From: Stenotrophomonas maltophilia
GTDB taxonomy: Bacteria > Pseudomonadota > Gammaproteobacteria > Xanthomonadales > Xanthomonadaceae
Assembly: GCF_023518235.1 (NCBI RefSeq)
Contig: NZ_CP090423.1
Location: 4,605,001-4,669,000, forward strand
Direction: 5' to 3'
DNA length: 64,000 nucleotides
The translations under genes and the position numbers were made by a program. The notes under the pieces are model-generated. The model was not told the origin of the DNA, ran no database searches, and worked only from the letters and a program-made list of their open reading frames with translations. Below are positions 11,994-24,258 of this stretch, piece after piece; position 1 is the stretch's first letter; each line of letters begins with the position of its first letter.

Positions 11994-12097
11994 GGCCGCG
12001 CGGGTAGGTTGCGCAGGGGGCGCCGTGAATACGTCCGTGTAGGCTCGGGCGCGCCATCCATGGCGCTTACGCCCCTGCGCAACCTACCCGCGCGGCC
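11994..12097 (+). repeat. Variable-arm palindrome, copy 1
   Basis: Perfect 26-bp inverted arms at 11994-12019 and 12072-12097 enclose about 52 bp. The enclosed core (TACGTCC, then TGTAGGCT, then GCGCCATCCATGGCGC) is shared with two elements near 24 kb, while the arm sequence is not. It lies between convergent aidB and a lipoprotein gene. No coding role is seen. Confidence 0.8.
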
Positions 12098-12159: not shown

Positions 12160-12186
12160 AAAAGCCGCGCCAGTGCCGCGGCTTTT
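12160..12186 (-). terminator. Terminator of the first alanine-rich lipoprotein gene
   Basis: AAAAGCCGCG (12160-12169) pairs with CGCGGCTTTT (12177-12186). Read on the minus strand it is a GC-rich stem ending in TTTT, then TGCATTCTGC. Confidence 0.7.
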
Positions 12187-23914: not shown

Positions 23915-24010
23915 GGGGCGGTGTCGGAGTGCGGGGACGCCGCAAGTACGTCCTTGTAGGCTTGGCAGCCGCATCCATGCGGCTGACACCCCGCACTCCG
24001 ACACCGCCCC
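23915..24010 (+). repeat. Variable-arm palindrome, copy 2
   Basis: Perfect 22-bp inverted arms (23915-23936 and 23989-24010) around a core of 52 bp. The core has TACGTCC, TGTAGGCT and a small inner palindrome GCCGCATCCATGCGGC, as in copy 1. The arms are unrelated to those of copies 1 and 3. Confidence 0.8.
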
Positions 24011-24015
24011 ACCTC

Positions 24016-24154
24016 CGACAGATTTCCGCGATCGGGTACATCCCGCCGTGCGTGGATAAATTTCCATCGAAATCGAAAATTTCGACATCGGAATGATTTG
24101 AGCCGAGCATGGCTCGGCTCTACAGAAGAACGGACAGCTCGCGGAAATCTGTCG
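24016..24154. repeat. 16-bp inverted repeat between two variable-arm elements
   Basis: CGACAGATTTCCGCGA (24016-24031) is repeated in inverse orientation at 24139-24154. It encloses an AT-rich hairpin (CGAAAT...ATTTCG, near 24068-24085) and a SMAG repeat at 24100-24123. Confidence 0.7.
24100..24123. repeat. SMAG-type GTAG palindrome
   Basis: GAGCCGAG-CAT-GGCTCGGCTC followed by TAC; read on the minus strand it begins GTAGAGCCGAG. Confidence 0.7.
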
Positions 24155-24156
24155 AA

Positions 24157-24258
24157 GGCGGGGTGGGTCCGGTTGAGGGGGCGTGAGCCGCATGGATGCG
24201 GCGACCGAGCTTACATGGACGTACTTGCAGCGTCCCCCTCAACCGGACCCACCCCGCC
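24157..24258 (-). repeat. Variable-arm palindrome, copy 3 (reverse orientation)
   Basis: Perfect 25-bp inverted arms (24157-24181 and 24234-24258). Read on the minus strand its 52-bp core matches copies 1 and 2 (AAGTACGTCC, TGTAAGCTCGG, GCCGCATCCATGCGGC). Confidence 0.8.

Follow-up and report, generated by a model that had tools for sequence, protein, structure and literature searches.

The stretch of Stenotrophomonas maltophilia genome analysed here (the window, 64,000 nucleotides in all) contains three elements which had been located in an earlier reading of its letters alone (the sequence-only reading) and which are each closed, as had been stated there, by a perfect inverted repeat: the arms measure 26, 22 and 25 bp. 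In copy 1 (11994..12097), the strand which we modelled, called the GGA strand below, is the minus strand of the window. Its outer arms, at 11994..12019 and 12072..12097, pair over 26 bp, as can be read in the sequence and as is borne out by covariation over 19 orthologues. They enclose the hairpin H3 (12051..12066), which reads GCGCC-AUGGAU-GGCGC on the minus strand and agrees with the loop statistics of the family, and the helix P2a/H2 (12022..12044), which reads GCC-UAC-ACGGAC-GUA-UUCAC-GGC on the same strand. Copies 2 and 3 are paired in inverted orientation. Copy 2 (23915..24010, GGA strand minus) is the left member of the pair, with arms at 23915-23936 and 23989-24010 (22 bp), H2 at 23947-23958 and the H3 loop at 23973-23978; copy 3 (24157..24258, GGA strand plus) is its right member, with arms at 24157-24181 and 24234-24258 (25 bp), the H3 loop AUGGAU at 24192-24197 and the H2 loop AUGGAC at 24215-24220. 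The two GGA strands point outward from the centre of the pair (24011..24156).

Copy 1 is flanked by a frame with an AidB/acyl-CoA dehydrogenase domain and, on the other strand, by a 158-codon frame without Pfam match; copies 2 and 3 have as neighbours two frames, of which one encodes a DksA/TraR-type zinc finger and the other a mechanosensitive-channel domain. Judging from the flanking frames, both settings are convergent. Beside copy 1, outside the element, a terminator-like hairpin (AAAAGCCGCG..CGGCTTTT) occupies 12160..12186; it precedes the element for the gene able to read the GGA strand of this copy. One can also notice that the inner flank of many Stenotrophomonas copies is conserved (CGACAG-TTTCC..CTGTCG), for instance near 24010-24035 and 24130-24156 of the window; on the GGA strand it could fold into a third hairpin whose loop contains GGA.

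We built a covariance model of the GGA strand, R1, from 48 of 81 candidates, using copies of the seed pattern with paired arms; its E-values are rough. In the window, R1 gives 84.0 bits for copy 1 (12007-12084, minus), 81.1 bits for copy 2 (23924-24001, minus) and 80.0 bits for copy 3 (24169-24246, plus), while no other match in the window exceeds 17.6 bits (E 0.09). Read on their opposite strands, the three copies score 10.7-11.5 bits, the lowest value being that of the plus strand at copy 1. Folded as RNA, the three copies are, on both strands, more stable than all 200 of their dinucleotide shuffles (z -8.2 to -9.6); the consensus H2 and H3 are absent from the minimum-energy fold of copy 1. 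The core shared by the elements exceeds chance by far, as a 14-base pattern taken from it occurs 35 times in this genome and once in the reversed control. The core had been described incompletely: the small hairpin TAC-RTCCNT-GTA, the second of the core, with a covarying stem, had been missed, as had the GCC/GGC helix below it.

The elements belong to a repeat family. This genome has at least 124 R1 copies at E <= 0.001, 150 of the 2367 first-look candidates having been scored. The strict 14-base core was found in 61 of the 81 genomes of the genus (the present one among them), and a wider strict pattern in 38 of 369 genomes of the class Gammaproteobacteria, that is in 33 of the 271 genera sampled, with two matches in total for the reversed control. 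Among the matches listed, the hosts are Stenotrophomonas, Xanthomonas, Marinobacter, Rheinheimera, Shewanella, Yersinia, Sodalis, Microbulbifer and Methylotuvimicrobium. In a sample of the whole phylum, R1 matched 19 of 299 genomes, all of the same class, with at most 15 candidates scored per genome. The highest pattern count, 472, was that of the genome G328, where R1 finds at least 150 copies. A search of plasmids with copy 1 and a search of phages with copy 2 gave no match. Beyond the papers on the Rfam entries discussed below, our literature search, outside which subscription papers mostly lay, returned none on this repeat family as such. On the chromosome of the present genome the set of at least 124 copies is unevenly spread, with 0/124 copies at 800-1200 kb and 26 in the bin 4400-4800 kb. 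In another genome (G032), 9 of the 47 listed core copies lie less than 400 bp from a contig start, which may reflect assembly trouble or adjoining insertion sequences.

The arms had been described as different in every copy, which does not hold: two arm classes, recognised by eye, account for 23 of the 35 strict copies of this genome, and each class is nearly identical letter for letter. In a second high-copy genome, 433 of the 1711 pairs that can be made of 59 copies share at least 15 left-arm matches. The arms are shared inside classes, and therefore they travel with the element. The three copies of the window happen to belong to three different classes. It had been proposed that arms aligning between most copies would make the element an ordinary repeat family. 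They do align inside the classes, and hence this is a repeat family, though one whose pairing is kept by selection. The pairing was measured on 249 copies which had not been selected for it, of which 44 come from loci of this genome and 205 from other loci. The median number of Watson-Crick pairs in their arm stems is 25, and it falls to 8 when the right sides are swapped between copies, and stems scoring less than 20 are found in 17 of the real copies against 230 of the 249 swapped ones. Arm stems scoring at least 20 are thus present in 232 of the 249 unselected copies.

The covariation between classes and genera amounts to 0.762, against 0.197 after shuffling. In the 48 diverse copies, each of the 13 inner arm pairs changed on both sides and displays three or four Watson-Crick types, and the whole structure counts 381 cells with changes on both sides against 118 in shuffles. 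Over these 13 pairs 93.2% of the cells are paired, a figure biased upwards as the set was chosen for its paired arms. An external stem encloses both hairpins, all its 13 inner pairs covary, and most unselected copies keep it.

The comparison of orthologous sites for compensatory change, also suggested at the outset, could be carried out at the site of copy 1, where 19 of 30 orthologous loci (that of this genome included) keep the full element with the same arm class. Of the other 11 loci, three are without element, seven have a truncated, degenerate or interrupted one and one has different arms. No clean empty site was found among the orthologous loci, the three element-free ones (L254, L257, L274) being deletions. 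The 19 orthologues, 17 of which are distinct, show 33 cells changed on both sides against 13.6 after shuffling, and a covariation of 0.169 against 0.089. For the pair 18-103, GC (10 copies), GU (5), AU (1) and another combination (1) coexist at this one site. The compensatory change looked for is thus seen. Some loci of this site deserve a separate mention. In L253, L260 and L262, other sequence takes the place of the left half of the element as far as H2 or nearly so; it may come from insertion sequences. L266 and L264 have mixed H2 stems (TAC with GGG, TAC with ATA), which suggests gene conversion between copies or a compensatory change half made.

If a fold matters on one strand, one expects G·U to be tolerated there but not when the mismatch is a wobble of the opposite strand. 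We counted the mismatches of the arms in 150 stems out of 176 non-redundant copies (26 copies without stem were omitted and the three outermost pairs trimmed): 184 are wobbles on the GGA strand, 27 are wobbles on the TCC strand, and 147 are other mismatches. Taken one by one, 92 copies lean towards GGA-strand wobbles, 10 towards TCC-strand wobbles and 48 towards neither (p 9e-18). The swapped control is balanced (25 against 25), while the bias is found again in the second genome (79 against 31) and in the 17 distinct orthologues of copy 1 (12 against 6). Purine-purine mismatches on the GGA strand are likewise favoured (82 against 26). This means that structural selection acts on the GGA strand, the complement of the TCC strand on which the sequence-only reading had been made; the bias fits an RNA and a single-stranded DNA alike. 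The arms are a clean example of a helix whose pairing is selected and whose sequence is free, the selected strand being readable from the asymmetry of the wobbles.

The sequence-only reading had left two causes for such arms, selection on structure or the copying of both arms from one local template. The former is strongly supported by the two-sided change of 13/13 inner arm pairs, by the compensatory change at an orthologous site and by the one-sided bias of the wobbles. As for the latter, for instance by hairpin-primed template switching, the long and often perfect arms would suit it, but the arm classes are common to many copies and are not taken from the surroundings of each, the wobbles are one-sided, and GC, GU and AU coexist at the pair 18-103 of a single site. 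We rejected it because it predicts perfect pairs without strand bias, and we find it scarcely credible.

Along the GGA strand, one arm is followed by H3, CGAGCC, P2a/H2 and the other arm, and the conserved linkers are CGAGCC and UUCACGGCG. With the loop left unconstrained in the search, H3 was found in 244 of 247 copies. Leaving aside 37 loops of odd size, the loops of H3 follow ANGGAN in 190 of 207 cases and are closed by a C-G pair in 200 of 207, their most variable position being the second (T 143, G 49, A 12, C 3). In 97 R1 matches drawn from 70 loci, GGA is present in the H2 loop 97 times, in the H3 loop 96 times and in both loops 96 times; the 15 R1 matches which lie outside the seed pattern all have it in both loops. 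Hence the element presents, on one strand, two hairpins with AYGGAY-type loops, of consensus ANGGAN. Both across genera and at one site over 19 loci, selection has kept the pairing of the GGA strand and its two GGA loops. The ANGGAN hexaloop closed by a C-G pair is a preferred site of CsrA/RsmA in the structural literature, and this feature, GGA in the loops of hairpins closed by C-G, is the one found here. Motifs binding CsrA are generally paired because CsrA is a dimer, according to PMC4333381. A csrA gene is present in 33 of 38 element-bearing genomes and in 280 of the 331 other genomes of the class, so that its presence does not set the two groups apart; a genome which is 98% complete (G275) has three copies of the element and no csrA match.

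The H3 loop is itself interrupted in some copies. L010 (about 1527-1608), L207, L273 and L068 (at a contig end) have there an insert of some 80 bp which contains small hairpins, and three loci of G328 (L278, L282, L287) have a different hairpin repeat, as though inserts were targeted to the hairpin loop.

The sequence-only reading knew of no formal description of the element. There are in fact two, on opposite strands, in Rfam: TwoAYGGAY (RF01731) and Ysr224 (RF02770), although the copies of the window stay below the thresholds of both. When 12 genomes were scanned with RF01731, 21 of the 25 matches at E <= 0.001 fell on R1 elements, on the same strand, including all of the 21 full-length matches. 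Five are in this genome (109 of 293 first-look candidates scored), with 36.3-39.6 bits (best E 1.6e-4) for a threshold of 43, all five on R1 elements and on the same strand. In the 11 other genomes, 16 of the 20 matches coincide with R1 elements of the same strand, among them both matches above the threshold (50.2 bits in G695, 43.3 bits in G568); four partial matches (model 49-108) in G644 lie away from R1 matches. Fourteen control genomes gave 0 matches to RF01731. A scan of loci also placed L339 (51.7 bits) and L332 (44.0 bits), of other genera, above the threshold, on the GGA strand and at R1 matches; the filtered scan of genomes does not have these two places, so its filter loses some matches. 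Copy 1 has no RF01731 match up to E 10. As the copies of the window do not reach the gathering threshold (43 bits) and so fail a defining feature, we did not file them as RF01731. Judged by these alignments, the family is nevertheless a diverged, high-copy gammaproteobacterial branch of TwoAYGGAY, to which it is homologous.

Ysr224, an sRNA of Yersinia, is by the same kind of comparison the same element on the other strand. A Yersinia copy (L177) has 100.9 bits with Ysr224 on the TCC strand and 20 bits (E 1) with TwoAYGGAY on the GGA strand, and L338 has 82.4 bits with Ysr224, above its gathering score of 70, under which the copies of the window remain (23.4-27.1 bits). The matches to miRNA in lax Rfam scans were taken as chance matches to long hairpins. 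The existence of Ysr224 raises the question whether the functional RNA, an sRNA of this type or a hairpin of a 3' UTR, is read from the TCC strand. The Rfam model lies on that strand, multiple expressed copies of Ysr224 are reported in PMC12112432, and, with respect to co-directional neighbours, the GGA strand is antisense 21 times against 12 sense. The G·U pairs of the TCC strand (27) are however rarer than the other mismatches together (147) and far rarer than those of the GGA strand (184), and we consider a function of the TCC strand improbable.

In the set of at least 124 copies of this genome, 98/124 have a neighbour at less than 600 bp. Of the 49 close pairs, 47 have their GGA strands outward, and 38 of these 47 are spaced by 244-307 bp. 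Over all the loci examined, those of this genome included, 44 of 49 close pairs are divergent; no rule of orientation was seen in wider-spaced pairs. The arms of the two partners are similar in 0 of 30 pairs, where about 3 would be expected on re-pairing (9 of 300 permutations are as low), while the mean similarity of partner arms is no lower than in re-paired sets (102/300). This weak signal could mean that the formation of one large hairpin is avoided, or that the partners are the two fixed ends of one mobile unit. Other arrangements exist: at L330:591-1805 six copies follow each other head to tail on one strand with a spacing of about 228 bp, unlike the divergent pairs found elsewhere, and L136:3121-3736, from a Saccharophagus MAG, has four copies which all point the same way within about 620 bp; some of them have an H3 whose stem is A/T-rich.

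The gene context was established on low-GC loci alone, because the gene caller is unreliable at high GC, where it produced shadow frames in the window. The sequence-only reading had placed all copies between convergent genes, which is right for the three copies of the window but not for the family: of 63 copies in these loci, 23 are in convergent, 33 in co-directional and 7 in divergent gaps, with 6 more at locus edges. Convergent gaps are enriched all the same (23/63 copies against 35/156 background gaps), as they would be if the element were a bidirectional terminator of convergent genes. This we hold to be very improbable. A separate terminator-like hairpin stands beside copy 1, and a similar one is present in the orthologous loci, including the three without element (L254, L257, L274); no T-run adjoins the arms; and a terminator needs neither a strand bias nor constant loops. 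In 81 copies of other species, we found neither the T- or A-run adjoining the arms that would go with a Rho-independent terminator (GC-rich stem and U-run) nor, in the base profile, a promoter-like or T-run signal, so that a promoter or terminator at a fixed distance was discarded too. The GGA strand is not preferentially in the sense of its co-directional neighbours (12 sense, 21 antisense, p 0.16).

The arrangement of the copies calls for another explanation, a mobile DNA of the REP/REPIN or MITE kind, whose transposase would recognise the GGA strand in the form of a folded single-stranded DNA, so that the structure would serve mobility and no RNA. It is favoured by the copy numbers (at least 124 in this genome, 472 pattern matches in G328), by arm classes multiplied within genomes, by the pairing of 98/124 copies with 47/49 close pairs divergent, and by a patchy presence (61/81 genomes of the genus). 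G.T is also tolerated in DNA hairpins. On the other side, the core, with up to 2 mismatches allowed, is in none of the 34 loci of Y1 (RAYT/TIRYT) transposases examined, 4 of this genome and the 30 best-scoring of the genus, with flanks of up to 1.5 kb. This also bears out the statement of the sequence-only reading that the elements are distinct from the transposase-linked SMAG repeats. No transposase could be seen by eye in the reading frames between the members of four wider pairs. The pairing is kept by compensatory change at one old site (19/30 loci), which is unlike dead insertions, although gene conversion could help, and the constancy of the loops matches a known site of RNA-protein binding. 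We keep the mobile-DNA reading as a real possibility, if not a likely one, because Ysr224 is modelled on the TCC strand, because the GGA strand is not preferentially sense and because copy 1 lies behind a terminator-like hairpin.

The repeats which flank the transposase genes inspected are of other sequences, so that the TIRYT repeats (Di Nocera 2013) were rejected as the identity of the element; we infer that these flanking repeats match Smlt1152/Smlt4509. In L034 the Y1 transposase gene is flanked by AAAAGGGGACGGAGGGGATTAAGTCG inverted repeats and is apparently a TIRYT unit; the other three Y1 genes of this genome have REP-type repeats.

A natural mixture of both kinds of explanation is a mobile repeat which is kept for its CsrA/RsmA-type sites, either domesticated or as a parasitic sponge. 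It joins the arrangement of a repeat with constraints of RNA type and overlaps with the explanation which we prefer, as do the confidences of the preferred explanation and of its rivals in general; taken as a separate reading, it strikes us as somewhat doubtful.

The explanation which we prefer, and which we believe is probably right, is a repeated structured-RNA element, a branch of TwoAYGGAY, whose twin GGA loops are candidate sites for CsrA/RsmA held by a stem of free sequence. The working strand would be the GGA strand, that is minus for copies 1 and 2 and plus for copy 3. On it, an external helix of 20-30 bp, of which only the pairing matters, encloses H3 and H2 with their ANGGAN hexaloops closed by C-G. 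One CsrA/RsmA dimer may bridge the two GGA loops, and transcribed copies may dock or titrate the protein. The long helix would act as a clamp indifferent to sequence, insulating the pair of loops from the neighbouring sequence and protecting the RNA, and its sequence would drift because its role is one of insulation and protection. Against this explanation stand the fact that the transcript named for the element, Ysr224, is modelled in Rfam on the TCC strand, the 12 sense copies against 21 antisense ones, and the position of copy 1 behind a terminator-like hairpin. The four partial RF01731 matches of G644 away from R1, the lack of any promoter-like or T-run signal at a constant distance in 81 copies, and the minimum-energy fold of copy 1 also count against it.

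A bolder version, of which we are rather sceptical, is that the family is a dispersed and multiplying system of RsmA/CsrA titration. Close to fifty divergent pairs in this genome would each give a twin-GGA RNA whichever the direction of transcription, partner arms would be kept different so that the halves fold on themselves and do not anneal, copy number and local transcription would set the amount of free regulator, and the system would stand in for RsmY/RsmZ in Xanthomonadaceae. If the loops do bind CsrA/RsmA, the intergenic copies, tens to hundreds in number, would be an unrecognised store of sites where a global regulator can bind, and the control of RsmA in Xanthomonas and Stenotrophomonas could be tested directly. 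In any case, two Rfam entries on opposite strands are joined into one family, the strand under structural selection can be told from sequence alone, and, by one strict pattern, the candidate CsrA-binding motif is extended to the 33 gammaproteobacterial genera given above.

Finally, the element can be set against the known systems which it resembles. Like the SMAG/GTAG REPs and the TIRYT repeats of S. maltophilia, which PMC3733652 describes as high-copy intergenic palindromes often paired in opposite orientation, it is abundant, palindromic and frequently paired; its sequence is another one, and the transposase-flanking repeats inspected are of other types. Ysr224, multi-copy in Y. ruckeri according to PMC12112432, differs in that the Rfam model is on the TCC strand, stops a few bases inside the right arm and leaves H2 unpaired. 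CsrB/CsrC and RsmX/Y/Z are encoded by few genes per genome. The likeness to these sponges lies in hairpins with GGA loops which sequester CsrA/RsmA (PMC4333381). TwoAYGGAY and RsmY belong to the same Rfam clan, CL00106, and the match of RsmY at copy 1 has 7 bits (E 10). RsmU of Xanthomonas campestris, as reported in PMC7694677, is an RNA of a xanthomonad which comes from a 3' UTR and sequesters RsmA; unlike the present family, it is a single locus. The closest likeness is to TwoAYGGAY, with tandem AYGGAY-type hairpins on one strand inside an external stem, and RF01731 aligns over its full length to the GGA strand. TwoAYGGAY was proposed in 2014 as a CsrA-binding RNA, and its external stem is called "not well conserved" in PMC4333381; this remark is the puzzle of the varying arms, which the sequence-only reading had raised, seen from the other side. 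The differences are that the copies of the window do not reach the Rfam threshold, that H2 has here a stem of 3 bp and, over GCC/GGC, a UUCAC bulge, and that a genome contains tens to hundreds of copies, which are frequently arranged as divergent pairs. What is new is the copy number, the divergent pairing, the evidence on the strand and the wider range of hosts.
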